Of a stretch of DNA of 64,000 nt, positions 33,224-50,484 are shown piece after piece. The DNA lies in NCBI GenBank assembly GCA_019359395.1, contig JAHHHK010000005.1, positions 124,001 to 188,000 of the forward strand, read 5' to 3'. Made by a program: the position numbers and the translations under genes. This stretch comes from Komarekiella atlantica HA4396-MV6. GTDB lineage: Bacteria > Cyanobacteriota > Cyanobacteriia > Cyanobacteriales > Nostocaceae. Numbering within the stretch: the first letter of the stretch is position 1; each line of letters begins with the position of its first letter. The notes under the pieces were generated by a model. The model was given only the letters and a program-made list of their open reading frames with translations, made no database searches and was not told where the DNA came from.

Positions 33224-36200
33224 TCACTTAGTTGGCCAAGGAATCATCGGGTCATGAGCTAGCTTTTTCGAGACTTCGTATGCCCCAAAGCGATTGAGGT
33301 GACTAGGGTCAGAAAAGTAGTCATTTGTTTTTGTCCACTGTTGGCTTAAATCACGATAGATAAAGTTGGGGGTAGTAGCTAGACTCAACATAAATTGCTG
33401 AAATTCTTGCTCATATTTTTTGCGTACTGGGTCTAGATAATCTGCGGTGAGAGGTGTGTTGACAAATACTAAGGAAATTTTTTGAGACTGGGTAAACTGA
33501 AGCACGGCTTGGAATGCGGCATCTTGTTCACCTCCTATTTGGAAAGATTTATAGTCGTTGTCGTAATTTCCTGGAACTCTGGAATGTTTTTGATAGTATC
33601 TAGCGGGATTGAAGCGAATAGACAAAGGTAAAAAGCCATCAAAGTCAACTGCTTGTTGAGAAGTATATTCGTCTGAATTGTCAGTTTTTGACTGTGTTTG
33701 TGATGCGATTGTTTGAGGGCGATCGCCAACTAATGGCAATGAGTTCCATTGTTTTTGCAATAGACTTTTAATCTGATCGCGGTTTTGATAACTAGCCGAG
33801 AAAACTGCTAAACCCTGATTTAACCATCCATCTACAGCTTGATAAATGCTAATTTCTTGTTTTTCCGCTTTTGTCTTTTGCTCCTTAGGAGGATTTTTGA
33901 GAGCCTGTTCGCTATTTGGAGTTGCCAATTGTTTCTGCAATGCCTGTTTGTAGCCATTTGATGCAGTAATTGACTTAAAGGTCATATCCTCGCGACCACT
34001 ATTAAAAGCACGTGCACCATCTGCCCAGACAATTAGTTTGGGTAGTTCTGATGGTTCTAATACTTGGCGGATCACAAAGTCTACAACTTGTGCAGTAGCA
34101 CCGTTAATGCCAAAGTTAAACACGTCAAGATTTGGATAACCCTGAGTTGCCAAAGCTTTAGAAAGTGCTGCCGGATCTACTCCTCTAAGGGCGCGGGAGG
34201 AGCCAATAATCAACACATCAGGTGGAGTACCAGTTCTAGCCAGACGTTGTTTGTATAGCACTAGTTGCTCATCTAACTGTCTAACATTGAAACTTGGCAT
34301 TTGTGATCGCGCTGCTAACAGAATAGCGGTTGCAGTTGCCTTTTCTTTGAGTGGTGCGGCTACCAAGTTCCTTTCTTGGGTATCATCATTACTTTGAGTA
34401 AACTCAGAAGCATTGAATACAGAACTATTATTTGGAGGGGATTTTGTCTTGGAAGTGTTGGCTAAAAATGCTGTTCTCTCACTCTGATTTTTCCCAGCCG
34501 TCAACGATGCTTTTTGCTTAGAAGGTGATGGAGGCGAGACACTGGTAGCAGTTGGTGTTGGCATGGTACGTGCGATGATTTGACCCAACACCCAATCGGT
34601 TTGGAGAGTAAGCAATAATCCCAATGTCCCCCAGACTAAAGCGACCTTAAGTCCTTGACTATCATAGTTAAGATTCTCTGACTGGTTGCTTTCCGTAAAT
34701 AGCTGGCTTGCCAACAGCCATTTTTTCCCTGTTGCACTCGCCGTTGTCAGCCAATCCCGCGCCACTCCCGTAACAAAACTTTGAACTTCTTCTGTTGTTA
34801 AGTCGGGACGCAAAACTGGCTCATCTGTCTCAGAGGTGATCAGGTCGCTAACGTATTGAGAAGTAGCAGCAAATTCTGGGGTAGCTTCTGGTACTAAACG
34901 TTGACGATGATCAAAATCAACACCGTAGTGCCAAAAAGGTTCTTTATTACCAGCACGGCGTCCGTAAACACGTACACCCGTAATGCTAGTCAGTTTTAAC
35001 TGGCGCACAAACTGAGCAACTTTGTTTGCTACTTGTTTACGCGCTGGACAAACTGGCGCATCACACATAATGTGCAATAAATCACCTTTATTTAGCAGGA
35101 GTACCCGAATACCACCTGTTAATAAACGCCACTCTAGGTCAGGATTAAGTAAGCGCTCCAGTAAAAAAACGATCGCAGGTTCATCGCCACTAGTCGCCAG
35201 TTCCAGTGCTGATACAGCAAGGGCGGGATGTTCCGTAGCAGGTAAAGAAACCCAATCAATCCACGCGGGTTGCTTGTCGCCTGTTTTTTGTCCGTAGATG
35301 GTGGCGGCGAGAATGCCTTGGGGAGCGATCGCTTCTATCAGTGGTAAAATCGCATCCAAGCATTGTGCTTTCTTTGGCGCTGGGGCGGTTTCTAAAGGGT
35401 CGAAAGCTGGAGTGCAAAAGATATGTAGGGTTGATTCTTTGAGAGAAGCTTGGATAGCAACTTTAGACTCGGCAAATAACTCAGTTAATAGCCGGGCGAT
35501 CGCTTGCACATCTCCCCAACGCGCCCATTCCTTAAGCATCACCTCTGGTGGCGTTAGATCAATGCGTAGCAGCCAATCTGGCGCACTCTCACCGCTGACT
35601 TGTGAAACAATCACCGCATCTTGGTAGCCGGAAAGCTTCAGATGACGCAACTTCTGGGCTACTGGTTCGGCTAACAATGATGCATCGGGGCTGTAGCTTG
35701 ACTGACAAAATATCCATAGGCGATTTTCATCAGGCTGATTCTGTCTTGCCTGAGACTTGCGAATCTTTACCTGTACTGCCACCCCCAAGGTACTCAAAGT
35801 TTCGCTAAGATAACGAGCAATAGCATCTGGATGTCCCTGGCGTGCCAAACTTTCGTTAGAGATAATCAGCGCCCCACCGGGTTGGCTTGATTTTTCCGAG
35901 TCTTTTAACAGAGCTTGTTGCACCTGCTCCAGATGCCGTTCTATTTGATTCAAGTAAACCCGATGACACCATTGGGGGCGCTGTTGTTCTTTTTTTCGAC
36001 CGTAGACAAATACTTGGTATATTGAGGGTTGTTCGCTGCTTGTGAGAGTATCCAAGTCTGTTTGCTGTAATGCTCGCAGCAAGTCAGACAGAGTGCGCCA
36101 ACGTTGCGGACACTCTGTACCTTCACAAAGAATGTGCAGGTCGTTTCCCCGCAACCGGACTTTCACCCCAAAAGTGTTGATTCCTGTTGCTTGGCTTACC

Positions 36201-36244
36201 AATTGCACTAAAGATTGCTGGTGGTCTGGTAATAATGTTTTCAT
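33224..36244 (-). CDS. DUF1574/SGNH-like protein with four N-terminal modules, 1006 aa
   Basis: The C-terminal third has SGNH-type hallmarks of the DUF1574 group: block I IIGSSRALRGVDP, block V near the end FSDPSHLNRFGAYEV, and FNFGINGATAQVVDF between. It is preceded by a membrane helix (ALVWGTLGLLLTLQTDWVLG, about residue 540). The N-terminal 450 residues repeat a module four times, each with a strand such as LHILCEGTECPQRW or LHIFCTPAFD and a strand such as VYGRKKEQQRPQWCHRV or IYGQKTGDKQPAWIDWV. This is probably the partner of the MBOAT enzyme, transferring acyl groups to polymer outside the membrane. The role of the modules is unknown. Confidence 0.8.
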   Translation of the reverse strand: MKTLLPDHQQSLVQLVSQATGINTFGVKVRLRGNDLHILCEGTECPQRWRTLSDLLRALQQTDLDTLTSSEQPSIYQVFVYGRKKEQQRPQWCHRVYLNQIERHLEQVQQALLKDSEKSSQPGGALIISNESLARQGHPDAIARYLSETLSTLGVAVQVKIRKSQARQNQPDENRLWIFCQSSYSPDASLLAEPVAQKLRHLKLSGYQDAVIVSQVSGESAPDWLLRIDLTPPEVMLKEWARWGDVQAIARLLTELFAESKVAIQASLKESTLHIFCTPAFDPLETAPAPKKAQCLDAILPLIEAIAPQGILAATIYGQKTGDKQPAWIDWVSLPATEHPALAVSALELATSGDEPAIVFLLERLLNPDLEWRLLTGGIRVLLLNKGDLLHIMCDAPVCPARKQVANKVAQFVRQLKLTSITGVRVYGRRAGNKEPFWHYGVDFDHRQRLVPEATPEFAATSQYVSDLITSETDEPVLRPDLTTEEVQSFVTGVARDWLTTASATGKKWLLASQLFTESNQSENLNYDSQGLKVALVWGTLGLLLTLQTDWVLGQIIARTMPTPTATSVSPPSPSKQKASLTAGKNQSERTAFLANTSKTKSPPNNSSVFNASEFTQSNDDTQERNLVAAPLKEKATATAILLAARSQMPSFNVRQLDEQLVLYKQRLARTGTPPDVLIIGSSRALRGVDPAALSKALATQGYPNLDVFNFGINGATAQVVDFVIRQVLEPSELPKLIVWADGARAFNSGREDMTFKSITASNGYKQALQKQLATPNSEQALKNPPKEQKTKAEKQEISIYQAVDGWLNQGLAVFSASYQNRDQIKSLLQKQWNSLPLVGDRPQTIASQTQSKTDNSDEYTSQQAVDFDGFLPLSIRFNPARYYQKHSRVPGNYDNDYKSFQIGGEQDAAFQAVLQFTQSQKISLVFVNTPLTADYLDPVRKKYEQEFQQFMLSLATTPNFIYRDLSQQWTKTNDYFSDPSHLNRFGAYEVSKKLAHDPMIPWPTK

Positions 36245-36460
36245 GGGAAGTTAACTTTACAGGAAGCGATTGTTGGGGGATAGTGCCTGCACTTGTAAAC
36301 TAGAACCATAGATTTATCACACTCTGACATTTTTTTTTAACACTTTTGTCACCTTCGTAGCTCACAAAATGGGCAAAGATAGTTTTGTACGGTTGCAAGT
36401 CAGACTGATCTTAAGTTTTGCGTTTATTTTACTCATCTTCCTAATAACTGAGAATTAGCA

Positions 36461-36697
36461 ATGCCTCCTGCCAACCAACAGCCTTCTCCTAACTCTGGAT
36501 TAAATCTGGTTTTGTTTAGCATTCCCCAATCTTTCCTTTTACAAATAGGTACAGCGTCTATACTACTGCTGCTCACCACACAGAAAACTACTGTTAGAGC
36601 ACTAGAAGCTATAGGGGAAGCCAGTGAAGAATTATTTCGGGGCGATCGCTTACCCATCCTCAACTTCCCAGACGACAACGAACTCGATAAAAGTTAG
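36461..36697 (+). CDS. Small single-pass membrane protein, 78 aa
   Basis: The protein has a short polar start (PPANQQPSPNSG), one hydrophobic helix (LFSIPQSFLLQIGTASILLLL, about residues 18-38) and a C-terminal acidic tail (EASEELFRGDRLPILNFPDD). I do not recognise a named family, though small proteins of this shape recur in cyanobacteria. It precedes ppc on the same strand by 104 bp. The start at 36461 is the only good ATG. Confidence 0.65.
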   Translation: MPPANQQPSPNSGLNLVLFSIPQSFLLQIGTASILLLLTTQKTTVRALEAIGEASEELFRGDRLPILNFPDDNELDKS

Positions 36698-36801
36698 AAA
36701 AATTTACTATAAACAATTATTTGCTCCGGAAAAATACCATGAGCATTGGGTGCAAAACGTAGAAGTGTAAACAGTAATCAGCTTTATCAATAATAGAGAA
36801 T

Positions 36802-39800
36802 ATGGGTTCCCTTTTATACTCTTTGTCTCAAGCTGCAAATATATGTCCGACATCGGAATTATTTTTGCGACATCGCCTACAGGTAGTAGAAGAATTGTGG
36901 GAGTCAGTTCTGCGGCAAGAATGCGGTCAAAATATGGTAGATCTGTTGCGACAGTTGCGCGATCTGTGTTCGCCAGAAGGACAAGCAACAAATGACCAAG
37001 CCTCCTCAGCCGTAAAATTGATTGAACAACTGAATATCAACGAAGCAATTCGAGCGGCTCGTGCCTTCGCTCTGTATTTTCAGCTGATTAACATCATAGA
37101 GCAGGAATATGAACAAAAGCAGCAATTGAGTCGCTTTGAGGCAGAAATTGAACCAGCTGATCAAGAAATCCTACCCAATATTATCTATTCATCCAATCAA
37201 GGAGAAGACGACGCACCTGTTAAGAGGGGGATAGTAGGAGACTTACTGACCAGAAATTGGGTGGATAAAGCATCAAGCCAAAAAGGTACTTTTGCTGCTT
37301 TATTTCCCCATTTATTCAAACTGAACGTACCACCCCAGCAAATTCAACGGCTAATTTCACAACTGGATGTGCGCTTAGTCTTCACAGCTCACCCCACAGA
37401 AATTGTTCGTCATACCATCCGGGATAAACAGCGACAGGTAGTAAAACTCTTGCAACAGCTTGATTCTTTAGAAAGTCGGGCTGGTAGTGCAGGAGGAGGA
37501 TATCCTTGGGAGGTAGTAGACTTACGTGAACAATTGCTCGAAGAAATTCGCCTGTGGTGGCGCACAGACGAACTTCACCAGTTCAAACCCTCGGTACTAG
37601 ATGAAGTAGATTATGCTCTGCACTACTTTCAAGAGGTATTGTTTGATGGAATTCCCCAACTTTATAAACGCTTCAAATACACTTTAGCCGCTACCTTTCC
37701 TTGGCTGGAACCGCCGAGTAAAAACTTCTGCTGTTTTGGCTCTTGGGTTGGTTCAGACAGGGATGGTAATCCATCAGTAACACCAGAAATTACCTGGCAA
37801 ACTGCTTGCTATCAGCGCAAAATGGTCTTGGGAAGATACATCGAGTCAGTGAAGCAACTGATTGAATTATTGAGTGTATCGATGCACTGGAGTGATGTTT
37901 TACCAGATTTGTTGGAATCTCTGGAGTTAGATCAGTCTCAGTTGAGTGAAGTATACGACGCTTTAGCGCTACGTTATCGGCAAGAACCCTATAGGCTAAA
38001 GCTAGCTTATGTACAAAAACGGCTAGAAAATACACGCGATCGCAATTTAGCCTTGTACAACCAGGAAACCCCAAAAAATCAAGACACCCCAATGTATCGT
38101 TCGGGAGCAGATTTTTTAGCAGAACTGCGGTTGATTCAGCGCAACTTAACCGAAACAGGCTTGAGCTGTCGAGAACTAGAAAATCTCATTTGTCAAGTAG
38201 AAATTTTTGGCTTTAACCTGACACAGCTAGATATCCGCCAAGAATCATCCCGTCACGCCGATACGCTGAATGAAATTTTAGAATACCTACAAGTACTTCC
38301 TCAACCTTATAACGAACTCAGTGAGGAACAAAGAGTCGCTTGGCTAACAGGAGAATTACAAACTCGCAGACCGTTAATTCCAGCAGAATTGCCATTTTCC
38401 GAAAAAACCAACGATGTAATTGAAACCTTCCGCACCATGCGATCGCTGCAACAAGAGTTTGGCAGCAATATCTGCCACACTTATATTATCAGTATGTGCC
38501 GCGAAGTTAGCGATGTCCTGGAAGTGTTGCTGTTAGCCAAAGAAGCTAGACTTTTTGACCCCGCCCTCGCTGTAGGAACTATTCAAGTTGTTCCTTTATT
38601 TGAGACAGTAGAAGACTTGCAGCGCTCTAGAAGCGTCATGCGTCAGCTCTTTGAACTCCCCCTATATCGAGCTTTATTAGCCGGCGGCTACCAAGAGATC
38701 AAAGCAGAAGCTACAGAAAGCGATTCTTCCTCCCTAGCTCCCCCTGCCTCCCCAGCTTCCACAGTTTCATCCCCCCTCACCTCTAACTTACAAGAAGTAA
38801 TGCTGGGGTATTCTGACAGCAACAAAGACTCTGGTTTTTTAAGTAGTAACTGGGAAATTCATAAAGCCCAGAAATCACTCCAGACAATCGCAGAAGGATA
38901 TGGCGTGAATCTACGGATTTTCCACGGACGAGGCGGTTCTGTGGGACGCGGTGGCGGCCCAGCTTACGAGGCTATTTTGGCTCAACCGGGTCACAGTATT
39001 AACGGGCGAATCAAGATTACCGAACAAGGGGAAGTTTTGGCTTCCAAATACTCCTTGCTGGACTTAGCTTTGTACAATTTGGAAACCATCACCACTGCTG
39101 TGATTCAAGCTAGTTTACTGCGGACTGGGTTTGATGATATCGAACCCTGGAATGAGATTATGGAAGAATTAGCAGCGCGATCGCGTCAACATTATCGTGC
39201 TTTAATCTACGAGCAACCCGATTTTATCGACTTCTTCCACCAAGTAACCCCAATTGAAGAAATTAGCCAGCTGCAAATTAGTTCCCGTCCCGCACGGCGT
39301 CCATCTGGCAAAAAAGATTTAAGTAGTCTGCGAGCTATTCCTTGGGTATTTAGCTGGACACAAACCCGCTTTTTGCTGCCTTCCTGGTATGGCGTCGGCA
39401 CAGCTTTGCAAGAATTCTTGAACGTAGAACCAGAAGAACACCTGAAATTGCTACGTTACTTTTATATCAAATGGCCCTTTTTCAAGATGGTCATTTCCAA
39501 GGCAGAAATGACCTTGGCAAAAGTAGACATCCAAATGGCGCACCATTATGTTGAGGAATTGTCAAAACCGGAAGACAAACTTCGCTTTGAGCAGGTTTTT
39601 GAGCAAATTGCCAGCGAATTCTATCTCACAAGAGATTTGGTCTTAAAAATCACTGGTCACAATCGACTTTTGGATGGTGATCCTGTTTTGCAGCGATCAG
39701 TGCAGTTACGCAATGGCACAATTGTCCCTTTGGGATTTATACAAGTTTCCCTGCTCAAGCGCCTACGGCAATCCCTGAATACTACTGCTACTTCTGGAGT

Positions 39801-39891
39801 TATCCACTCCCGTTACAGCAAAGGTGAACTACTACGAGGAGCATTGTTAACTATCAATGGCATTGCTGCGGGTATGAGAAATACAGGCTGA
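36802..39891 (+). CDS. ppc: Phosphoenolpyruvate carboxylase, 1029 aa
   Basis: PEPC makes oxaloacetate from PEP and bicarbonate, feeding the TCA cycle and amino acids. The motif [13 protein letters not shown] (about residue 195), with catalytic His, and [14 protein letters not shown] (about residue 709), with catalytic His and Arg loops, are both present; [17 protein letters not shown] lies just before the latter. Residues [10 protein letters not shown] and the C-terminal end AAGMRNTG are normal. A Pro/Ser-rich insertion (about residues 650-668, [16 protein letters not shown]) is typical of some cyanobacterial forms. The start at 36802 leaves the usual N-terminus, [10 protein letters not shown]. 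Confidence 0.97.
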
Positions 39892-39904
39892 GCCGCTGTA
39901 TGGA

Positions 39905-39955
39905 GTCCTTTGTCATTGGTCATTAGTCTTTGGTAATGTTCTAATGACAAAGGAC
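39905..39955 (+). repeat. Inverted repeat downstream of ppc
   Basis: A 13-bp inverted repeat (GTCCTTTGTCATT with AATGACAAAGGAC) encloses a 25-nt loop that repeats the same TCATTAGTC motif, and lies just after the ppc stop. It may act as a terminator or be a small dispersed element; related TTGTCATTGGTCATTAGTC sequence is at 33126-33151. Confidence 0.65.
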
Positions 39956-39978
39956 TAATGACAATTGAAAATTAACAA

Positions 39979-40233
39979 ATGACTAAAAATCGAATTTTCA
40001 TTTGCACCTTTTTAGCACTGTCATCAGGTTTTTTTGGTGGTTATATTGGTGGACAAATTACCTTAATGCTACATAACCAAAAGTGCCAAAATCAGCCTTG
40101 GGGTTTCAAGCAGATGTGCAACGCTTGGGTAACACCAGGAGCAATGTGGCAAGGTAGCACTACAGGAATATGGACAGGCACAATCTTAGGGGCATTTGTC
40201 GGCGGTTCAGTAACGCGTCAAAATCGTGATTAG
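39979..40233 (+). CDS. Small membrane protein, 84 aa
   Basis: The product has two hydrophobic, glycine-rich segments (FLALSSGFFGGYIGGQITLM at the start and IWTGTILGAFVGGSVT at the end) that look like small transmembrane helices with GxxxG packing. In between are two Cys (QKCQNQ, KQMCNAW). I do not recognise a family. It follows ppc on the same strand but beyond the inverted repeat at 39905, so separate transcription is possible. The ATG at 39979 gives a usual N-terminus. Confidence 0.65.
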   Translation: MTKNRIFICTFLALSSGFFGGYIGGQITLMLHNQKCQNQPWGFKQMCNAWVTPGAMWQGSTTGIWTGTILGAFVGGSVTRQNRD

Positions 40234-40312
40234 CGTGAGCTTCTAACGAAAGACATTCGTTATACCAAATTGCCAACAAAAGAAATAAAGAGAGTTGCAT
40301 GAATGAATTAGC

Positions 40313-41296
40313 CTATCCTCCATAGAAAGTACTCAATCTAGCATTGCGTTTGAGTTCATCAGGCAATTGAAAATATGGGTTAAATTCCTGCTCTCGACTA
40401 TTGGTATCTTCAATCAGTGGTGAACCAATGATATACTCTGGGTGCGATCGCTCAAAAGGCATCTTGAGAGCCATACTGGCGGGCCAACCTCTTGCTATCG
40501 CTTTAGAATGTTCAAAATTACCGTGGCGGATTTGGAGTGTCCAGCGGATGCGATCGCTGCGATTAACTCCACTGGCATGTAGCATTAGGGTATTGAAAAC
40601 CAGCACATCCCCTATTTGCATAGGTACGTGAAGATGCGGAAATTGCCTCAGTATCGACCAATCAACAATATCGACGCTTGGAGGTTCATTCTTGCTCCGT
40701 GCCCTCCTTGGCAACACCCCCAGCTTGTGCGATCCGGGTGCAATCTGCAAACAACCATCCTGTTCTTCCACGTTCCGTAATGGAATCCAGTATACGACTG
40801 CATCTTCAGAGTCCTGAATAACTGGATAATCCTGATGCCACGGAAATAGATGCTCGTCTTCGTAAGGTCTATCGACCCGTATATCAAACAACATGTTAGC
40901 CATTAATGTGTTTGTAGACATTAGTTTCTTGGAAAGTCTGACTAGCTTGGGGTTGACGTTTATTTGGTGGATAGAAATTAATAAACGAGCAGCGTGTTTA
41001 ATCACCTGTCCGTGCATATACTCTAACTGACTCAATTGTTGAAATCCTTCATCAAATTCGGTAAGCGCATTTACTGTGGATTCTTTTTGCAGCCCTAACT
41101 GTTGCATTTTTAGTTCAATCAGCTGCCTAATATCGCAGCGGACTGAATTGAGTTCTTCATCAGTAAGTAGTCCTTTAGCCAAAAAGCAACCAAACTCACC
41201 AAACAACTGCTTAGCTTGGTTGTCAGACTTTGCTAATGAAGTTAGGTCAGTCAGAGAGTAATCGACTGATAAATCGTTAATTAAAATACTTTGCAT
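40313..41296 (-). CDS. PhyH-family Fe(II)/2-oxoglutarate dioxygenase in the lasso locus, 327 aa
   Basis: The fold is of the phytanoyl-CoA dioxygenase family. The facial triad is present: H154 and D156 in WHQDYPV and H240 in MLHASGVN, with Arg in RWTLQIR to bind 2-oxoglutarate. Such enzymes hydroxylate, and a few halogenate, an aliphatic carbon; the Asp at the second ligand position argues for hydroxylation. It lies 33 bp after the cyclase gene and has a GGAG ribosome-binding site, so it belongs to the lasso operon. I infer that it modifies the peptide. A hydroxylated aspartate is the plausible product, since another 2-oxoglutarate enzyme of a Streptomyces lasso pathway does so. Confidence 0.88.
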   Translation of the reverse strand: MQSILINDLSVDYSLTDLTSLAKSDNQAKQLFGEFGCFLAKGLLTDEELNSVRCDIRQLIELKMQQLGLQKESTVNALTEFDEGFQQLSQLEYMHGQVIKHAARLLISIHQINVNPKLVRLSKKLMSTNTLMANMLFDIRVDRPYEDEHLFPWHQDYPVIQDSEDAVVYWIPLRNVEEQDGCLQIAPGSHKLGVLPRRARSKNEPPSVDIVDWSILRQFPHLHVPMQIGDVLVFNTLMLHASGVNRSDRIRWTLQIRHGNFEHSKAIARGWPASMALKMPFERSHPEYIIGSPLIEDTNSREQEFNPYFQLPDELKRNARLSTFYGG

Positions 41297-41329
41297 TGTT
41301 AACTGCTCCTTCAGTGTTAGGTACTAACA

Positions 41330-43225
41330 CTAAATCTGCAAAAGATAATTTATATAATGTATTTCAGTGGGCTTTTCCAGAAGGTGATGCCAGGTCTTGA
41401 TCATCTGCTCAAACCAGGCGATGAGTGAGAGTGTGATATTAATGCGACCACAAGTTGGCATATCTCCAATACCAACGGCAGCTTGCTGCATGACTCGAAT
41501 TAATTGTGATTTATCAAATATACCTAACTCGCAGATAGCCGAAGTTTGAACCATTGTTTCTAATTGCGGTAGATGCTTTGATAAACCTAGCCAATAGTTA
41601 TCGTTAAAAGACCTTTTGTCTGTCCTAATACGGATGGCTTCGGGCAACACTCCCTGCATAGCCGTTTGGAGTATGGGTTTAGGCATCCCAGGGATTTCCC
41701 TGATGCTTCTTGGAAGCCCCAAGCAAAAACTCAATAGACGTGGATCAAGGAAGGGACGAGAGTTGTGCATTCCTCGTGGAGCTGCCAGATTCCAACTAGA
41801 CCAATCTCCTACAGAGCTTTGGATAGCCCATAAATCCGCAGCAATTTCAATAGGGCTATGATATAATGTCTGAGCATTTTCTCTGCCAACACTCTGCATC
41901 TGATAACTGCGAGCAAAATCAGGAATCACCCACGGAGGAATAGAAAATGCCCCAAGGTTTGGCCAACGTCCAAACCCATGTCGTAAGAAATATCCGAATC
42001 TTTCACCCGTTAAGATAGGCCAAGCAGGCTGAATACCGCATCCATACAGTATCGACCATACATCTTGGTTTTTAGCATAGGCCCATCGCTTAGCCTCGAA
42101 AAGTGCTGCCAACCATCGACCCTGCCGTAAAAAGTCGGCGATGTAAAACCGTTTGCTGGCTAGTAGTTGATCACCTCCTATACCTGTCAATATAGTGTCT
42201 ACTCCAACTTGATGGGCAGTCTCAATTAAAATCTTTTCCATCCCCAACTGGTTTAAATACGGGTAAGGCTCATCATGTATGGGGATTTCCTCGTTAAACC
42301 AAAGAAAGTCCAATGCATTGTCTGAGTCGATCAAGTGGGCTGCAACTGGCCCACCTTGTTCAATCACCATTTCAATATAAGCTCGCTCACCAACCAAGCA
42401 AGACCTTTTGTACACTTCCGACAAAGTATGTAACGGCGATCGCCCTACGCCTGATAGCATCCATTCACGAGCCGTACAAACTATACTCGAAGAATCCATT
42501 CCTCCCGATAAATGGGCAGCAATTCGCCCTCGCTGGACTCTTTGTTTAACGGCTTGTCTCAAAAGCTCAGCGTACTGTTCGCCAGCTTCCTCTAGTGTGA
42601 TGTTGTTATTTTCGTCGAGTTTTGCTTTCCAATTCCACCAACAGTGACTTTTTACCTGTCCGATTGGGTTCATTTCCAACGTAGTGCCAGGAAGAACGCG
42701 CTTAATTTGTGGGAATGGTGTTCTTTCGGTGGGTAGCTCAAAACCTGGATTAGACCACATAATAAACCGTGCTATGAAATCAAGATCTAGTGATCTTTCA
42801 GGTAGCAAAGCCAGAAGCGATCGCAAACTCGTACTTACGGCTATTCTTTGGGAGTTGACGAGCCAAAATAGAGGCCACGAACCAAGGGGGTCTCTTAAAG
42901 CAAATAGACGCTGCGAAGCTCCATCCCACAATACTAAGGAAAATTCACCCTCTAATTCTTCAAGACCCTTAAGGCCACTGTAACAATAGACAATTATGGC
43001 GATCGCCGCATCGGAAGCACAATTTTGCCTCATTGATTGCGGCAATTTCGAGAGAATTTCATCTTGATAACACAGGTGCCCCAAAAGTACAGCTGCAACT
43101 CCAGATCGGCGATCGTCAGCAAATGTAACTAAAGGTGCTTGCTTGGGATCATCTCTATGGCAGGAAAATAAATGAAACTGAGTATCTTCATTCAAGGCAG
43201 TGAAGACATCAAATCCTACTCTCAT
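41330..43225 (-). CDS. Lasso-peptide cyclase (asparagine-synthetase-like C protein), 631 aa
   Basis: The C protein activates the side-chain carboxyl of an Asp or Glu with ATP and couples it to the N-terminal amine, closing the macrolactam. Its synthetase domain has the pyrophosphate loop LSGGMDSS (about 239-246), and GIGGDQLLA about 100 residues later. The N-terminal glutaminase-like domain lacks the nucleophilic Cys2, as expected for a lasso cyclase. I chose the ATG at 43225, two bases after the stop of the B gene; the open frame reaches a TTG at 43234, which would overlap B. Coupling with B and PhyH supports one operon. Confidence 0.94.
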   Translation of the reverse strand: MRVGFDVFTALNEDTQFHLFSCHRDDPKQAPLVTFADDRRSGVAAVLLGHLCYQDEILSKLPQSMRQNCASDAAIAIIVYCYSGLKGLEELEGEFSLVLWDGASQRLFALRDPLGSWPLFWLVNSQRIAVSTSLRSLLALLPERSLDLDFIARFIMWSNPGFELPTERTPFPQIKRVLPGTTLEMNPIGQVKSHCWWNWKAKLDENNNITLEEAGEQYAELLRQAVKQRVQRGRIAAHLSGGMDSSSIVCTAREWMLSGVGRSPLHTLSEVYKRSCLVGERAYIEMVIEQGGPVAAHLIDSDNALDFLWFNEEIPIHDEPYPYLNQLGMEKILIETAHQVGVDTILTGIGGDQLLASKRFYIADFLRQGRWLAALFEAKRWAYAKNQDVWSILYGCGIQPAWPILTGERFGYFLRHGFGRWPNLGAFSIPPWVIPDFARSYQMQSVGRENAQTLYHSPIEIAADLWAIQSSVGDWSSWNLAAPRGMHNSRPFLDPRLLSFCLGLPRSIREIPGMPKPILQTAMQGVLPEAIRIRTDKRSFNDNYWLGLSKHLPQLETMVQTSAICELGIFDKSQLIRVMQQAAVGIGDMPTCGRINITLSLIAWFEQMIKTWHHLLEKPTEIHYINYLLQI

Positions 43226-43227
43226 AT

Positions 43228-44004
43228 TCAGCAATACCGTATTGCAGGGGTAAATATCTCACAGTGGCTACGATCATCCGTTACAATCCAGGAGCCACAC
43301 TCTACCCAAGCGTGTGCCTGAAAAGGATATAAGTTAATGCCAAACACCAGTTCTGCTGGAAAACCAAAAATTGTTTTTAGAATTTGCCAACCAACAAGGG
43401 CACGTTCTTTACAGGCGATCGGTAATAAAAAGTACTTCGCTGCTGTTTCACGAACCAGTTTATCAACTGCTTTGACTGCCGTTTCCCAATCGCCAGAAAG
43501 TTTATTATTGTCAGTAGGATAGTGCCAAAGCTGCCAAAAACGGACAGTTTTAGTCCAACCCAAAGTACGAATGCTAATCCAGGCAAGTGTTAGCAACACA
43601 GAGGTAACGACAGGAGACGGAACTACTGGGTGGGAGCGCGGTAATTGAGAGCGAATCAATTGCTTAGATTGCAAATCACGCAGGAATTTTGTTAAGTCAG
43701 TTCGCACCTGCTCCTCTGCAATACCATATTCCTGAGCAATATAATGCACAGACGTTTCTAGACCATGCTCAATTAGGAGCATTAACATTTTTGTACTGAC
43801 TAAATCTAATCCGTAAAATCTGCCACGATTGAGATCTAGCAGCCGTGCCACTCCATCTTGCAAGAACAAGATTACATCCGCTTGGAGATGGTAGGATTGT
43901 TCTGCCTTCATCAACATAGTGGAGCTAAGCTCTTGCCACCCTATGTTTGTCATAAACGTCCATCTCGTTGTTTTTGTATATGAGCAGGCAGCTTGAGAAA
44001 ACAT
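43228..44004 (-). CDS. Lasso-peptide RRE and leader peptidase fusion (B1-B2), 258 aa
   Basis: This protein joins the two halves that many other lasso systems encode separately. Residues about 35-118 form a PqqD-like RiPP-recognition element (LLDLNRGRFYGLDLVSTKML), which binds the leader. From about 140 the B2 transglutaminase-like peptidase follows with its triad: Cys198 in LPIACKERALVGW, His231 in FQAHAWVE and Asp243 in WIVTDDRSH. It removes the leader just before core Gly1. The start may be the internal ATG (MTNIGWQE, residue 18), since the first 17 residues look unconserved. It lies between the precursor and cyclase genes. Confidence 0.92.
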   Translation of the reverse strand: MFSQAACSYTKTTRWTFMTNIGWQELSSTMLMKAEQSYHLQADVILFLQDGVARLLDLNRGRFYGLDLVSTKMLMLLIEHGLETSVHYIAQEYGIAEEQVRTDLTKFLRDLQSKQLIRSQLPRSHPVVPSPVVTSVLLTLAWISIRTLGWTKTVRFWQLWHYPTDNNKLSGDWETAVKAVDKLVRETAAKYFLLPIACKERALVGWQILKTIFGFPAELVFGINLYPFQAHAWVECGSWIVTDDRSHCEIFTPAIRYC

Positions 44005-44069
44005 CTCTACAAGATGCCTGCGTCATGATAACGTTTTCAAAACTTAGCTTGGTGAGTACCGTCTGATCA

Positions 44070-44085
44070 AAAGCATTGATGCTTT
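44070..44085 (-). terminator. Small hairpin between precursor and B gene
   Basis: A short inverted repeat (AAAGCAT with ATGCTTT, 2-nt loop) lies 27 bp after the precursor stop. Partial termination here is common in lasso operons to favour precursor mRNA over enzymes, but this hairpin is weak and the call is tentative. Confidence 0.35.
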
Positions 44086-44112
44086 CAATACTCGATATTG
44101 GCTATAAATGGA

Positions 44113-44271
44113 TTAAGAATAATACCCACCCCAATCATCCCAATATCCCCAGTAACCCTGCACTTTATTGAGATTGCCAAGTTCGTATAGTTTTGGTGCG
44201 TGGTAGTTTTGTGCTTTGGCTTGTTCACCACTACTGCATGTATTTGTCAATTCAAGCTGTTGAAATTTCAT
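44113..44271 (-). CDS. Lasso-peptide precursor (A protein), 52 aa
   Basis: This short gene has an ATG at 44271 with the strong ribosome-binding site AGGAGCTAGTT just ahead. The leader has the YxxP...LGxL pattern recognised by RRE domains (NYHAPKLYELGNLNKVQ), and the next residue is Gly, the typical core start. The predicted core is GYWGYWDDWGGYYS, 14 residues, with Asp at 7 and 8 able to form a 7- or 8-residue ring. The residue at -2 is Val, where Thr is usual. It sits directly upstream of B, C and the PhyH gene on the same strand. It is not a hit to a database search, only pattern reading, but the context is convincing. Confidence 0.9.
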   Translation of the reverse strand: MKFQQLELTNTCSSGEQAKAQNYHAPKLYELGNLNKVQGYWGYWDDWGGYYS

Positions 44272-44466
44272 AACTAGCTCCTATCAAAGAAAATTGGAAA
44301 AGAATTCAAAAGACAGAATGCTTTGTTTGATCTTTAGTGCATAATCATCATAAACAGCCTTTCTCTGTCGTGGTGTTCGAGCTTAGAGCTAATTTGTAAA
44401 AACCTTAAGCTGCCGTTCGCTTTACTACTATCAGACGAATTAATGAGCCATAAATTCTAGCTTCAC
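44272..44466. other. Putative promoter and leader region of the lasso operon
   Basis: The 195 bp upstream of the precursor gene contain no other frame and should hold the operon promoter. The sequence CTTAGAGCTAATTTGTAAAAACC and AT-rich stretches do not allow a safe -35/-10 call. The next sequence upstream is a transposase remnant. Confidence 0.4.
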
Positions 44467-44595
44467 TTACCTCCGATACAGCTCATAATCCTTGCTCAGA
44501 CGCCGAAATTGATTGAGCCATCTAAATGTACGTTCCACAATCCATTGCTTGGGTAATGACTCAAATGTTTTCGATATCCGTTCAATTACCTCAAC
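44467..44595 (-). pseudogene. IS5-family transposase C-terminal fragment
   Basis: About 42 codons survive: [36 protein letters not shown] and a stop. The WIVERTF...[12 protein letters not shown] motif is the C-terminal catalytic segment (third acidic residue E) of IS5-type DDE transposases. The rest of the element and its terminal repeats are gone. It lies just upstream of the lasso-operon promoter, so mobile DNA may have brought or disturbed this locus. Confidence 0.8.
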
Positions 44596-45013
44596 TCAAA
44601 CCTGGTCTCCACAAAAAAAGCTACCCAAACTGTAGATTTTCTTTACAAATCAGCTTTTAAATCTCCTGTTCCTATAAATTTGCTGATTATCAGCAGTTTC
44701 TATTTCTTATAACGAAGACCCTACACAAAATATTCCAAAACTGGAAAAAATTTTTGCCAAGCTTACTGCTAATGGTCGTATTCATGAGGTTTCTACAGGC
44801 GTTGAACCCTTATAAATTGGCAATGGTATTAATTTGTTAGCAGTAATTTATTTTGATCCTTAACACCAGCTCACTCAACGGAGGGAACCCTGCGTTCGCG
44901 CAGCGTCTTTGCTAGGAGAAGTTCAGTCAGAGCGCCGGAAGCCGACGCTCCGACTTCTCTTTGCACGTGACTGACTGCCCTTGACTCTTGACTCCTAACT
45001 TCTGACTCCTTGA
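44596..45013. other. Remnant and repeat-rich gap
   Basis: On the plus strand 44715-44810 reads as part of a protein (DPTQNIPKLEKIFAKLTANG then RIHEVSTGVEP) but ends in stops; I do not recognise it. At about 44878-44965 there is a GC-rich dispersed repeat block with GAGGGAACCCTGCGTTCGCG and GAAGTTCAGTCAGAGCGCCG. No intact gene is present. Confidence 0.5.
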
Positions 45014-45418
45014 TTAACCATCAGTCGGAGCAATAGGCGATTGCAGATTACTCAGAGTTTTCCACGTGTGAGTACTGGTATCAAAACAACGCCAATCCCC
45101 AGAGCGCTCTTGATAGCAAAACAGACTGCGATCGCGACCATCAAGATTATCAGTTAAATAATATACAATTCCTCGAAAAGGATAAGTCTTGCGACTCAGC
45201 CGCTTAGCCACTGCTTGATTCGGACATTCGATAACAAGAACTGGTTGACCATCCAGGTGAGCCAATGAAAAGATACACATCCGCAAAATGGCTCTGAGCC
45301 AACTCTGTGAGTTGTCAAAATATTCGTCTATGATTTTGTTGGTCAGAGCTTTTTCGAGCTTACGGTCTTTGTCGTGAGGAGTTTGGACATCAGACATAGC
45401 ATCACCTAATTGCCACAC
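45014..45418 (-). CDS. Conserved hypothetical cytoplasmic protein, 134 aa
   Basis: I do not recognise a named domain. The protein is soluble-looking, with LVIECPNQAVAKRLSRKTYP and LFCYQERSGDWRCFDTSTHT as its most structured part, and the aromatic/Cys pattern suggests a small alpha/beta fold. The ATG at 45418 gives 134 residues, but the ATG seven codons later (MSDVQTPHDKDRKLE) is likely the real start. It diverges from the 101-aa gene at 45589. It looks like a cyanobacterial family of unknown role. Confidence 0.65.
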   Translation of the reverse strand: MWQLGDAMSDVQTPHDKDRKLEKALTNKIIDEYFDNSQSWLRAILRMCIFSLAHLDGQPVLVIECPNQAVAKRLSRKTYPFRGIVYYLTDNLDGRDRSLFCYQERSGDWRCFDTSTHTWKTLSNLQSPIAPTDG

Positions 45419-45588
45419 CGTTGGTTTGAGATTAAACCAAAATCTTCAAAACTGACAAGTGTATATATATGTATAGCTAGCGTATATGGTATCGCAATTA
45501 TAAAAAAATACTAGTGAGTAAGCAAACAGAGCATTCAGGGATCAGCAAGGCTGGTAAAATCTGCTTATAGCCTTGAGAGCAAATTGTT

Positions 45589-45894
45589 ATGCCTACTGAA
45601 ACTAACCCAGGAAATCAAACTACTACGGGTGCTGATGCTGTTGATGAAGCGATCGCACAAGGAATTGATTTTGATGGTTCTCCCATTCCGCCTGCCAAGC
45701 TAGAACTTTATGGTAAAGTCATGGCGCTAGAGGGCAATAGACAGCGCAGTGGCGTTTCCAATACAATGCGATCGCGGATTGTGCGAATTGGTGCAAAACA
45801 TATTCCCCAAGCAGAACTCGACAAATTACTTGTAGATGCTGATTTCGCACCTCTGAAAGAGAAAGAAATTGCCTTTTTCTATAGCGGCAAGTAA
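45589..45894 (+). CDS. Small hypothetical protein, 101 aa
   Basis: I do not recognise a family by name. The first 20 residues are Thr/Asn/Gly-rich and probably disordered; from about residue 30 on it is helical (DFDGSPIPPAKLELYGKVMA, NTMRSRIVRIGAKHIPQAEL, DKLLVDADFAPLKEKEIAFF) and could be a compact helical fold. It starts with ATG at 45589. The gene is flanked by repeats on its 3' side. Codon use and a single good start support it being real. Confidence 0.7.
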   Translation: MPTETNPGNQTTTGADAVDEAIAQGIDFDGSPIPPAKLELYGKVMALEGNRQRSGVSNTMRSRIVRIGAKHIPQAELDKLLVDADFAPLKEKEIAFFYSGK

Positions 45895-45943
45895 CTATTA
45901 GCTGAGGATACTAAAATAGGACTTTGGCGAAAAGGCTTTTTAC

Positions 45944-46120
45944 CTTTGTGTCTTAGTCAAAGCAGTCCGTTCAAGTCAAGCCACTGCCTTGCAAAGAGAA
46001 GTCTGAGCGGAGGCTTCCCCCCGTTGTGGCAAGTGGCGCGGGACACTCGCCCACACGGCTGCCCTCGGCTTGGTAGTTAAAATATTACTTTTTTAACCAC
46101 TAAGGCTCTAAGACACAAAG
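45944..46120. repeat. Repeat block bounded by a 13-bp inverted repeat
   Basis: CTTTGTGTCTTAG (45944-45956) and its reverse complement CTAAGACACAAAG (46108-46120) enclose a GC-rich stretch with the dispersed modules AAGCCACTGCCTTGCAAAGA and GCGGGACACTCGCCCACACG. This looks like a small composite non-coding element. No target duplication was found. Confidence 0.7.
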
Positions 46121-46293
46121 AAAGATATATTATACATTGAAAGGGCTAATGCTAATTAATTTACTGTTTTAAAAAGGCTATGCAAAGTATTACATCAATC
46201 TCCAGCTATAGGAATTGATTTTTAATAAATGAACATGATACATATGACAACGATTGATGTAAGTTTTAACATGATTTAGATGAGGTTTCTGTA

Positions 46294-47085
46294 ATGAAGT
46301 GGCTAAAACGAACCTATCAATTTATTTTTACCAGGAAATCCTTATTTAATTTTCATCTAGCCCTGTTTCATCTTTCGCTTCGAGGAATGGGAATTTTAAA
46401 TTATGAAAGCAAAGTTGATTCGGGAGAAGATTTTTTTATTAAAAAATATATCAAAGGAAAAGAACAAAAAGTAATATTCGATGTCGGTGCGAATAATGGT
46501 AGTTATTCGCGTGAAATTAAGACTGAAGCCCCAAACTCGATTTTATATTCGTTCGAGCCTCATCCCGTGCATTTTAATACGTTGTCTCAAGTTGCTCAAG
46601 AATTCAACTTCCAGGCAATTAATGTCGGATGCGGTGATCAAAAGGGCAAAGCAAAGATATATGATTACCGTGATCAAGATTCTTCAGGACATGCTTCGTT
46701 GTATAAGAATGTCATAGAAGTGCTGCATTATTCATCATCGATAGAGTACGAAATAGAGATAATTACCATTGATGATTTTGTCGAAGAACATAATATTCAA
46801 AAGATAGATTTTCTGAAGATAGATACGGAAGGACATGAGTTAGCTGTCTTAAAAGGGGCTAAAGAAACCCTTAGTAGTGGCATCATAAAAATGATTCAAT
46901 TTGAGTTTAACGATATGAATATTGTGTCTCGAACATTCTTTCGAGACTTTCAGGAGATTTTAAAAGGATACCGTCTTCACAGAATGATGCGAGATGGACT
47001 TATTCCTATGAAGGCATATTTAGGCGGAAGACAGATTCATTACGAACTATTTGCCTATCAAAATATTGTTGCGATTCGTGATTAG
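46294..47085 (+). CDS. FkbM-family methyltransferase, 263 aa
   Basis: FkbM methyltransferases use S-adenosylmethionine to methylate hydroxyl groups of sugars or natural products. The SAM motif VIFDVGANNGSYSREI (about residue 58) is followed by the conserved FEPHP, INVGCGDQKGKAKIY and the family signature DFLKIDTEGHELAVLKGAKE. Only the substrate is unknown; glycans are common for stand-alone members. The N-terminus starts at the ATG at 46294 with about 40 residues before the domain. It is not adjacent to a glycan cluster, and 2 kb separate it from the lasso operon, so no link is claimed. Confidence 0.93.
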   Translation: MKWLKRTYQFIFTRKSLFNFHLALFHLSLRGMGILNYESKVDSGEDFFIKKYIKGKEQKVIFDVGANNGSYSREIKTEAPNSILYSFEPHPVHFNTLSQVAQEFNFQAINVGCGDQKGKAKIYDYRDQDSSGHASLYKNVIEVLHYSSSIEYEIEIITIDDFVEEHNIQKIDFLKIDTEGHELAVLKGAKETLSSGIIKMIQFEFNDMNIVSRTFFRDFQEILKGYRLHRMMRDGLIPMKAYLGGRQIHYELFAYQNIVAIRD

Positions 47086-47356
47086 TATCCGAGTTTTTGA
47101 AATGAAAAACTATTAAGAATGGCTCTTAACTAAGACTACTTAAAATCACAAAAGATAGTCAAAAACGTGGTGATGTGCTCAAAGTTATTAAATCGAAAAA
47201 GAGTAGATTATGATTAGTCAGCGATCGCGCACACCGTTACGTTATAAATAATCGCTAAACTGCTCATTCTTTAACCTCAATTCCCCAAGAGTTGATTATG
47301 ATTAACTTTGGGGTTTTAGCCTCTAGCTTGCTAAATACTCCGATTTTTTAGCTCAT

Positions 47357-47788
47357 TTATAAATATTCAAAAAATACCTCTGGTACTAATCTTAATTCCC
47401 CAGACTTAAAGCGAGAAATCTCTATCCAAAGTGCCAGATGTTTATGAGTTTCTGACTCAGAAAAAACTAAGCTTTCTAGTTGATAAAACTTGGGATCAGC
47501 AAAATCACATTGATAAAGTTGAATAATTTCATGTCCCTGTCTGCCATTAAATATAAACAGATTTTCTATACAACCCAGATAGTAAATATTCGTTAAATCT
47601 GCCTGAATTTCTTCTTGAAATTCCCGTTCTAGAGCTAGGCGGCTGGTTTCACCAAATTCAACACCACCACCCAGAGCACGATAGAATGTGTCTTGCTTTA
47701 CAGGGTCATAACCTTCAGAAACAAATATGCGTTCGCCATCTCGAATTAGCCCCAAGGCTAATAGCCGAATTTCACCTGGTTTATTCAT
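47357..47788 (-). CDS. NUDIX hydrolase, 143 aa
   Basis: The Nudix box GVEFGETSRLALEREFQEEI matches GX5EX7REUXEEXGU except for its last Gly position, which is Ala. The N-terminal strand set (IRLLALGLIRDGERIFVSEG) precedes the box, as usual. Such enzymes hydrolyse nucleoside diphosphate derivatives; the substrate is unknown. It ends an apparent two-gene operon: the DUF3531 gene upstream ends 8 bp before its ATG. No further clues. Confidence 0.9.
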   Translation of the reverse strand: MNKPGEIRLLALGLIRDGERIFVSEGYDPVKQDTFYRALGGGVEFGETSRLALEREFQEEIQADLTNIYYLGCIENLFIFNGRQGHEIIQLYQCDFADPKFYQLESLVFSESETHKHLALWIEISRFKSGELRLVPEVFFEYL

Positions 47789-47796
47789 TGTTGTAA

Positions 47797-48258
47797 CTAA
47801 TTGTCGTAAATAGAGTGAGAACGACTGTCACTATCCTCGACAGGCCAATCTGCATTTTCGCCGCCAATATATAATTCTTCAAGAGTGACATATTCTTCAG
47901 AAAGCTGTGTGAGAGCATTGATTAAAATATCTAAGGCGATCGCATCACTCGTTCCTAAGTCAAACCAGCAGCGTGCCCACATGCCTTCATACTCAAACTC
48001 GCCCATGTTATGCATCAGCGCTAACAGGCTTTTATCATACCCTTGTGGATCATAATCCATGTAGTTGATATCTGCTCCAGTTTCCTGCACTTGCAGATTT
48101 TCAGCATTAAATGCACCCAGTTTACCTAAATAAAACCAGGAATTAAAAACCTCTTCTACATACTGCTTTTCACGTCCAGAAGGAATAGTGCTGAACTTCA
48201 GCCAAATCCAAACATCAAATGGATTAAAATCACGGAACTGAATGTGCATTGCGGACAA
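47797..48258 (-). CDS. DUF3531 protein, 153 aa
   Basis: The sequence (MHIQFRDFNPFDVWIWLKFS and DPQGYDKSLLALMHNMGEFE, EGMWARCWFDLGTSDAIALD) belongs to DUF3531, a family of cyanobacteria and plastids with no known function. It is rich in aromatic residues and acidic and is probably cytoplasmic. The start may be the ATG at the fourth codon (MHIQFRDF), where the conserved part begins. The NUDIX gene follows after 8 bp, so the two are likely co-transcribed. Confidence 0.85.
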   Translation of the reverse strand: MSAMHIQFRDFNPFDVWIWLKFSTIPSGREKQYVEEVFNSWFYLGKLGAFNAENLQVQETGADINYMDYDPQGYDKSLLALMHNMGEFEYEGMWARCWFDLGTSDAIALDILINALTQLSEEYVTLEELYIGGENADWPVEDSDSRSHSIYDN

Positions 48259-48325
48259 ATATTTTAACTACTCTTACTAAAAATAAGCATATCAGGGTAG
48301 GGCTGGGAATAAGGTAGGAGTCAAA

Positions 48326-48353
48326 GTAGAGACGCGATTAATCGCGTCTGTAC
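48326..48353. repeat. Short palindromic dispersed repeat
   Basis: The 28-bp palindrome GTAGAGACGCGATTAATCGC plus GTCTGTAC is the same family as at 33156-33183 and 50826-50853; all three copies lie in intergenic sequence next to GTCAAAAGTC- or CCCTGCTCCC-type repeats. Confidence 0.85.
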
Positions 48354-48407
48354 AAGAGTCAAGAGTCAGTATTTATTCTCCCCCTGCTCCCTGCTCCCAA
48401 TACCCAA

Positions 48408-49370
48408 CTAACCGCCCGAATTATTTAGGCGACTAACAGCACCGCCGCGTTCACTCTCAATTTGTTTTACCAGATTAGCTGGGAGTTGGGATCTTTTAGT
48501 CAATGCTTTGTCAAAATTAGCGATCGCTTCTTGGATAAGTTGTTGGCTTTTTTCCTGTCTCCCCTGTTCCTTGAGGATTTGAGCTTTGAGATAATAAATT
48601 TCTGGGTTATCAGATGTAGTTTTTATCGCGCGGTTGGCATACTCCAGTGCTTGAGAGTACTGTTTTAAATCTCGGTAGGCAAGAGCAATACCGCGATCTA
48701 CAAGATACTGAGGAGCAGCATTTCTTTCTAACCGTTCAATTGCCTGATCTGGGCTAGCAAAAGGCAAGTTTACAGCCAACATTAAATCCATATAACCCTT
48801 GATTAAATTCAGTTCTGGGTCGTTGGCAGAAATCGCTTCGGCTTTGTCTAAATATTCATAAACTTGCCGCAACCGACCTAGAGCTCTTGGTGCACCGTGA
48901 ACTGTACCCTCGCGCGTGAGAATTACCGCTCCTTCTAAAAAATGACCAACAGCAGTGTATAAATTACCACGTAAAGGGTCGGTTGAAATCAATTTTTGTC
49001 CAGTTTCTAAGGTTCTCTGGCTGTAGCTGTCTAGTTTGCCAAAATCCTTTTTTCCATATGCTAAGGATGCCTTCATGGCATAAGCTAGAGGTTCATTTGG
49101 CTCATTGGATAGTGCTTTTTGCAGGTAACGCTCTGCTTCTGGATAGTTACCTTGTTGGAAAATTGCTTTAAAAGCTGCTTCCGTTTGATCGCCAATTTCA
49201 TGAGGTTTATTACTCCGAAACGGATCTCCAGCGAGGGAGGGACTTATCCACAAATTAAGAGCGATTGCCCAAGGGGCAACACCAAAGGCGATCGCACCCG
49301 CAAAAGTCACCTTAGTAAAGCGAGTAAATTTGGTAAACAAAATTGGTCGAGAAGAAAACCGTTTAGTCAT
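48408..49370 (-). CDS. Secreted TPR-repeat protein (Sll0314-like), 320 aa
   Basis: An N-terminal hydrophobic segment with a likely signal peptide (FTKVTFAGAIAFGVAPWAIA, up to LWISPSLAG) is followed by TPR-like helices, for example EAAFKAIFQQGNYPEAERYL, QKALSNEPNEPLAYAM, and GIALAYRDLKQYSQALEYAN. The GTVHGAPRALGRLRQVYEYL segment resembles the Sll0314 family. The protein probably acts in the periplasm or lumen as a scaffold. Function is unknown. The last residues (GAVSRLNNSGG) end 33 bp before a CCCTGCTCCC repeat. Confidence 0.8.
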   Translation of the reverse strand: MTKRFSSRPILFTKFTRFTKVTFAGAIAFGVAPWAIALNLWISPSLAGDPFRSNKPHEIGDQTEAAFKAIFQQGNYPEAERYLQKALSNEPNEPLAYAMKASLAYGKKDFGKLDSYSQRTLETGQKLISTDPLRGNLYTAVGHFLEGAVILTREGTVHGAPRALGRLRQVYEYLDKAEAISANDPELNLIKGYMDLMLAVNLPFASPDQAIERLERNAAPQYLVDRGIALAYRDLKQYSQALEYANRAIKTTSDNPEIYYLKAQILKEQGRQEKSQQLIQEAIANFDKALTKRSQLPANLVKQIESERGGAVSRLNNSGG

Positions 49371-49450
49371 TTTAGCCCTCAGAATAATTGCCGTTGAAAT
49401 AGTTGTATGTCTTACTTAAAAATGCAAAAAAATGCAAAAAATGGTTAATT

Positions 49451-49573
49451 CTAAAATTGCGACGATTTCAGCCAACACTTTCTACACAGGTTGACTTCGG
49501 TAATTTTTCCAGGTTCCCATACCTGTTGTCGGCATTGTTTACGGGTAAGTCTGCCACAATGGAGAGGATTCAT
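49451..49573 (-). CDS. Possible small Cys-rich peptide, 40 aa
   Basis: A short minus-strand frame encodes MNPLHCGRLTRKQCRQQVW, then a segment ending NLCRKCWLKSSQF, with a CX7C and a CX2C pair that could bind zinc. It continues upstream in the same frame without an ATG (KLPVGGVRAVQAPF), so it may be the end of a decayed gene. Coding character is suggested by the balanced Cys pattern only. There is no clear ribosome-binding site. Confidence 0.35.
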   Translation of the reverse strand: MNPLHCGRLTRKQCRQQVWEPGKITEVNLCRKCWLKSSQF

Positions 49574-49753
49574 AAATGGCGCTTGGACTGCTCGGACGCC
49601 ACCAACTGGTAACTTCGGGGAGAAGGTGAATGATTCTAGCTGCTAGATTAAGGTGTGAACGCAGGTAATGCGCGATGAATACTTTTCAGAATCTTCTAGT
49701 TGCTCTTGGTGTAGTTAATCAGTAATTTGCTGACTTTTTGGTAATCTTAACAA

Positions 49754-50428: not shown

Positions 50429-50432
50429 AATA

Positions 50433-50466: not shown

Positions 50467-50484
50467 AATAAATACGACCCTTGA

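Follow-up and report, generated by a model that had tools for sequence, protein, structure and literature searches.

A probable mobile lasso-peptide cassette in Komarekiella atlantica, with signs of ring-size variation among related precursors

In a 64,000-nucleotide stretch (64 kb) of the cyanobacterium Komarekiella atlantica HA4396-MV6 (contig JAHHHK010000005.1, positions 124,001 to 188,000; the whole stretch is called the window here), a tight operon of four minus-strand genes at 40313-44312 very probably constitutes a mobile cassette that makes a lasso peptide. The genes run in the order precursor (A), fused leader-binding and leader-cleaving protein (B), cyclase (C) and PhyH-type oxygenase. 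As judged from sequence, the cyclase is a member of a distinct group, outside the NF033535 family that is common in cyanobacteria, and the relatives of the precursor suggest that ring size has changed by gain or loss of single codons. An initial annotation of the locus had recognised a lasso-peptide gene set; it did not extend to the distinct cyclase family, to the mobility of the cassette or to the variation in ring size, in which the window core is one of the exceptions. The features are as follows.

44113..44271, minus strand: lasso precursor A, 52 amino acids (aa), leader ...YHAPKLYELGNLNKVQ, core GYWGYWDDWGGYYS (open reading frame (ORF), ATG start, family alignment, ratio of nonsynonymous to synonymous substitution rates (dN/dS)).
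44113..44157, minus strand: core region including the stop codon, with predicted ring Gly1-Asp8 and tail Trp9-Ser14 (family alignment and position counts).
43228..43953, minus strand: fused B, composed of a RiPP recognition element (RRE; PqqD) and a B2 transglutaminase-like leader peptidase (Pfam, NF033537, triad, PDB profile matches).
41330..43225, minus strand: putative lasso cyclase C, asparagine-synthetase homologue with SGGMDSSS and no Cys2 (Pfam, NCBIfam scores, cyclase tree).
40313..41296, minus strand: PhyH-type Fe(II)/2-oxoglutarate (2OG) oxygenase with H154, D156, H240 and R251 invariant in 5 aligned sequences (Pfam, alignment, dN/dS).
40313..44312, minus strand: cassette in common with Nostoc LEGE 12450, the other flanks being unrelated (blastn, two blocks).
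44467..44562, minus strand: C-terminal DDE transposase remnant just upstream of the cassette (23.2 bits against a cut-off of 23).

The precursor had been described as a 52-codon gene with a ribosome-binding site and a 14-residue core, and both the ORF and an AGGAG upstream of its ATG are present; GGAG precedes the ATG of PhyH. The coordinates and core given earlier are right, but the start codons of B and C shift inwards: judged from the N-termini of the relatives, the likelier starts are ATG 43953 (MTNIGWQ) and ATG 43225 (MRVGF), and the latter lies 2 bases from the stop of B. The span 40313-44271 assigned at first contains the gene set, whereas the unit common to LEGE 12450 extends to 44312. 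Promoter-like sites were not in excess (6 where 11.0 were expected), and terminator-like sites numbered 7 against an expectation of 5.0.

The B protein scores 51.8 bits against the NCBIfam lasso B2 model NF033537 (cut-off 33) and exceeds the Pfam cut-offs for PqqD (35.4 bits, cut-off 23.4) and Transglut_core3, so that both RRE and peptidase are recognised in the PqqD-peptidase fusion proposed before. Its catalytic triad, Cys198/His231/Asp243 in the 258-aa numbering, is invariant in all eight aligned B proteins, as in a B2 protease. In the PDB, a profile of these eight picked out two lasso RREs, TbiB1 (2.6e-9) and TfuB1 (5.2e-5), as well as a lasso PqqD chaperone (0.001). For C, the Asn_synthase and GATase_7 domains of Pfam, the SGGMDSSS sequence (an SGGxDS motif) and the N-terminus MRVG, which leaves no Cys2, agree with the Cys2-less asparagine-synthetase-like cyclase of the initial annotation. 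Its sequence matches in the PDB are asparagine-synthetase-type enzymes, including beta-lactam synthetase.

Among 463 small ORFs (30-100 aa) of the window, the precursor is the sole match to a loose lasso-precursor pattern of our own, and 20 block-shuffled controls gave 1 match in 12332 ORFs. Pairwise dN/dS among the window, Nostoc MG11 and Nostoc LEGE 12450 is 0.14, 0.08 and 0.06 for the precursor, from 5 to 18 changes per pair, which indicates purifying selection, albeit on few changes. The selection and the shuffled control led us to reject a chance ORF. In the same three strains dN/dS is 0.27-0.30 for B, 0.28-0.35 for C and 0.09-0.10 for PhyH.

The leader is of the YxxPxL type, and in the core that follows, residue 1 could form a macrolactam with an acid at position 7-9. 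Leaders of the same type with a Val-Gln or Ile-Gln boundary occur at 15 of the 20 cyclase-group loci (17 genes, 16 distinct cores), which supports the leader/core boundary first drawn. No precursor was found at L061 and L063, whose contigs end close to B, or at L066 and L067, and two L042 precursors with a YxxP leader and another boundary were kept out of the count. In a search with the back-translated core pattern, with 2 mismatches, only the core itself was matched. At L066:11274-12359 (minus strand), upstream of a divergent B/C pair, a small ORF (MKKQERKSMKVYV...) recurs in three near-copies, possibly unusual precursors.

If the cut falls behind Gln, residue 1 is Gly, Ala or Ser in 14 of the 16 distinct cores, the others being Asp in L041 and Arg in L060. 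The L060 gene (L060:8499-8666, minus strand), whose core would start with this Arg (RYWFGPRFDWFFWRCFFFCR), has two Cys, a listed TTG start and a ribosome-binding site that is not clear. A cut one residue later, which would make most rings of the family one residue smaller, seems very unlikely. The leader Tyr would then be back at 17 residues from the cut, and the Gloeocapsopsis ring would shrink from 10 to 9 residues, but residue 1 would become Tyr, Phe, Asn and the like, and in the outgroup member L064 the distance is 17 even with the cut at the same VQ boundary. We therefore reject the later cut on residue-1 composition and the L064 boundary, and retain cleavage after Val-Gln.

The initial annotation had left the ring acid open between Asp7 and Asp8. 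Set against the LEGE 12450 core, GDYWGYWADWGGYYSS, the window core is short of one GAT codon, that of Asp2, and the codon preceding the shared Asp is GAT rather than GCT. Since LEGE 12450 carries Ala at the place of Asp7 and keeps the next Asp, Asp8 would be the conserved acid and Asp7 a new one. In addition, Gly stands exactly four residues before the predicted ring acid in 14 of the 16 distinct cores. Closure on Asp7 to a 7-residue ring as in xanthomonins is improbable: both the window and MG11 have Asp7, and 7-residue rings are known (PMC13352647), but the Ala of LEGE 12450 and the spacing of Gly led us to reject it on the family alignment. The window ring most likely closes on Asp8, giving an 8-residue ring one codon shorter than that of its sister.

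With the cut after Gln, an acid occupies residue 9 in 14/16 distinct cores, against a mean of 1.23 in residue-shuffled cores and with none of 20000 shuffles reaching 14, although many cores are close kin and do not amount to 16 independent events. The exceptions are the core of the window and MG11, where residues 7 and 8 are both acidic, and one core of Gloeocapsopsis, whose only acid is at 10. The 8-residue ring appears to be derived, because rings of 9 (and 10) residues belong to the remaining cyclases of the subclade. In Gloeocapsopsis, tandem precursors (L004:5357-5497 and 5678-5815; one assembly), both with AAAGGAG before their ATGs, precede one B and one C, so that rings of 10 and 9 residues are predicted for a single shared cyclase; the calculated neutral mass of the 10-residue-ring product is 2378.124. 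It is conceivable, though we hold it only tentatively, that one cyclase family accepts substrates whose ring length varies by single codons: 8 in the window, 9 in the sister and in the 14/16 cores, and 10 in one Gloeocapsopsis precursor. We know of no natural 10-residue lasso ring. In a 2026 review the characterised lasso rings are of 7, 8 or 9 residues only, and a ring change by one residue is said to lower the yield sharply (PMC13352647). A ring closed on residue 10 of Gloeocapsopsis would therefore be of a size absent from the review's series. The caulosegnins I-III, for which one enzyme set makes 8- and 9-residue rings as summarised there (PMC13352647), offer a parallel, but here it is orthologous cores that would differ in ring size, and for one relative 10 is predicted.

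Tyr and Trp make up 7 of the 14 residues of GYWGYWDDWGGYYS, as first counted, but the composition is not unique as had been supposed. Trp, Tyr and Phe account for 44-56% of all five distinct subclade cores and for 16-44% of the 11 other cores; high aromatic content is thus a trait of the subclade, and the idea of a singular aromatic core was discarded. The core has 14 residues and a tail of six after Asp8, within the 6-7 of the initial annotation; a core of that length is not remarkable by itself, since canucin is likewise a 14-mer (PMC9266682).

Comparison by blastn (E <= 1e-10; window 34001-54000, L003 12.8 kb, L043 16 kb) indicates joint transfer of the four genes. The window and MG11 also have surrounding DNA in common, whereas the window and LEGE 12450 share only two blocks of 90.9% and 87.7% identity, jointly covering 40313-44312. 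Because the four genes alone are common to LEGE 12450 and the flanks are unrelated, the cassette must have moved as one. Between A and B, the LEGE 12450 copy is longer by ~200 bases, and a segment of ~270 bp in the window (44394-44663), which includes the DDE transposase remnant, is absent in MG11.

The oxygenase assigned to PhyH by the initial annotation matches the Pfam family well above its cut-off (82 bits against 22). The residues H154, D156 and H240 of its HxD...H pattern, which we take to be the metal facial triad, and R251, presumably the 2OG-binding Arg, are invariant in all five aligned sequences. Homologues occur in 5/192 Nostocaceae genomes (E <= 1e-20), namely the three lasso strains and L096 and L097, and a scan of viral contigs yielded no relative. 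In L096 and L097 the homologue adjoins a 116-aa ORF that encodes a beta/gamma-crystallin domain and has what looks by eye like a double-Gly leader; the next gene in L096 is that of a C39-peptidase ABC transporter. These regions (L096:8517-10013, L097:8756-10186), with their secretion genes, might specify a hydroxylated secreted peptide of their own.

Whether PhyH serves the lasso pathway deserves separate consideration. It could be a passenger acting on something else, which we regard as unlikely but worth weighing, given that L004 and L060 of the subclade carry exporter-type genes at that place and that the L096/L097 homologues sit without lasso genes. On the other side, PhyH moved jointly with A-B-C and is under strong purifying selection, and these two other Nostocaceae homologues (192 genomes) also adjoin a small secreted-peptide gene, a setting that by association fits PhyH as an enzyme for small ribosomal peptides. 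In canucin biosynthesis (CanA/B1/B2/C/E of Streptomyces canus), a 14-residue lasso peptide is likewise encoded with an Fe/2OG hydroxylase gene, and CanE hydroxylates the linear precursor with the aid of its B1; RES-701 peptides contain 7-hydroxy-Trp (PMC9266682). The two peptides differ, in that canucin is beta-hydroxylated at its C-terminal Asp14 (PMC9266682), whereas the window core has Ser as its last residue and abounds in Tyr and Trp. By analogy with CanE, the linear precursor, with the leader not yet cut off, is most likely the substrate that PhyH hydroxylates.

The presence of the four genes, the matches to their families, the selection on them, their transfer together and the conserved positions are direct observations; the cleavage site, the ring acid, threading, and hydroxylation with its site are deduced. 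The RRE half of B would bind the YxxPxL leader, and PhyH would hydroxylate the linear precursor ahead of cleavage, as CanE does. The B2 half, a cysteine protease, would then cut after Val-Gln and free Gly1. Subsequently, C would adenylate a side-chain carboxylate, most likely that of Asp8, and link it with the amino group of Gly1, so closing the ring round the threaded tail Trp9-Ser14, where bulky Trp/Tyr residues may serve as plugs. The expected mass of the unhydroxylated lasso is 1755.663 (MH+ 1756.670), with 15.995 added per hydroxyl, and that of the linear core 1773.674. The lasso function and enzyme roles first proposed draw support from the B2 and RRE family matches, the triad, the shared precursors, selection and joint transfer.

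Besides the few changes behind the precursor dN/dS, several observations weigh against this pathway, whose product is so far a predicted one. The cyclase falls below the cut-offs of NF033535, the cyanobacterial lasso cyclase (200.6 against 525), and NF033561, the albusnodin/ikarugamycin cyclase (166.9 against 300), and an AlphaFold2 model of C from a 5-row alignment failed, with a mean predicted local distance difference test (pLDDT) of 43.1. No exporter occurs among the neighbouring proteins scanned in 39979-47788, and the Gloeocapsopsis and G343 relatives have no PhyH, which makes this enzyme dispensable for the core pathway. By hand count, the leader Tyr lies 16 residues from the cut here and 17 in the outgroup member. 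Position -2 is Val or Ile in all 17 precursors, not the usual Thr, which earlier work called conserved and which is usual rather than universal. In the BsfA/B1/B2 system of Bradymonas sediminis, an aliphatic -2 residue, a YxxPxL leader and a Gly1-Asp8 ring are found as here, and the natural Ile(-2) is proven; yet the I(-2)V change, which gives the residue of the window, nearly abolished cleavage, and that system has a kinase instead of PhyH and a split B (PMC10368454).

Some of these points could also suggest a cyclised but unthreaded product, or a different B2/Asn-synthetase ribosomally synthesised and post-translationally modified peptide (RiPP). The sub-cut-off cyclase and the tail of only six residues after Asp8 agree with such a product; we give it little credence in view of the full lasso gene set, the lasso-type leader and the ring acid, and of canucin, a known lasso peptide of the same length (PMC9266682). 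The cyclases of six relatives are likewise below both cut-offs (NF033535 167.9-222.4, NF033561 167.9-194.8), and we take the low scores to mark a group of its own rather than to speak against a cyclase function.

A tree of 25 cyclases, drawn with a midpoint root and with L102 left out, accords with that view. A 100/100 branch splits 20 rows, including the window, from the ordinary NF033535-type cyclases and a Gemmatimonadetes row, and the window falls at 100/99 into one clade with MG11, LEGE 12450, Gloeocapsopsis and G343; the places of L005, L066, L067 and L101 are unsure owing to long branches. In a scan of GTDB contigs, identity in B was 94% for Nostoc MG11, 85% for Nostoc LEGE 12450, 61% for Gloeocapsopsis crepidinum and 29% for the distant Gemmatimonadetes locus. 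With a B profile (E <= 1e-20; overlapping genome sets), carriers numbered 11/217 genomes of Nostocaceae, 14/388 of the order and 4/386 of the phylum, and 2/19, 2/20 and 1/27 in three other families. A plasmid search returned one distant relative, L068 (NZ_CP046704.1), on the conjugative 337-kb Nostoc plasmid pNsp_a; in that record, whose gene table describes itself as incomplete, B is annotated as lasso B2, C as 'asparagine synthase-related' only, and no precursor is listed.

NF033535 is exceeded in 83/192 Nostocaceae genomes, including one locus on contig C22 of the genome of the window, so that the strain has two lasso loci of different kinds. For this second, ordinary locus (G000:C22:38890-40821, L098) the precursor candidate has the core GLGLGLFTDKEFPISTPKDDVTFS; it has Thr at -2 where the present family has Val or Ile, and a cut after its ...Thr-Gln would by eye fit a Gly1-Asp9 ring. 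Lasso loci of cyanobacteria have been published (PMC9332814, PMC11392904, PMC9967302). As far as these accounts and L098 describe them, the ordinary loci (L098, Cyanocohniella LLY in PMC9332814, Roseofilum in PMC9967302) have a YxxP leader, an RRE, a B2 and an Asn-synthetase-like cyclase as here, but B1 and B2 are separate (PMC9332814, PMC9967302; ORFs of 100 aa and 145 aa in L098), in contrast to the fused B of the window. In the literature search, which went by titles and opening abstracts, nothing on this precursor family came up; the main genome-mining survey (Tietz 2017), which this search did not cover, may include it. A tryptophan-centred mining study (Harris et al. 2024), represented here by its entry in a reference list, has Trp-rich lasso peptides and their modifications as its topic, as here.

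The sister group differs in its neighbourhood. A pentapeptide-repeat protein (Pfam) lies near B and C in each of eight loci of the sister group (L035-L040, L059, L062), six of which are close kin, and a pattern scan found none in the whole window, L002-L005, L041, L042, L060, L061, L063, L064, L066, L067 or L096-L102, of which L061 and L063 are cut by contig ends. Pentapeptide-repeat proteins protect gyrase in some antibiotic clusters (PMC9231227); by analogy, the lasso peptides of the sister group may target gyrase.

While lasso loci as such are known from cyanobacteria, of most interest here would be the apparent ring-size series within a separate cyclase group. This family escapes the curated cyclase model, its C being named 'asparagine synthase-related' in the one annotated record, and the cassette brings with it an oxygenase that likely tailors a Tyr/Trp-rich core. 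If the prediction is true, the 10-residue ring of Gloeocapsopsis would be the first natural one known to us, and its precursor pair a built-in experiment on how a cyclase measures its ring. Ring size limits lasso engineering, and this family may offer natural sets of substrates and cyclases in which one codon alters the ring.

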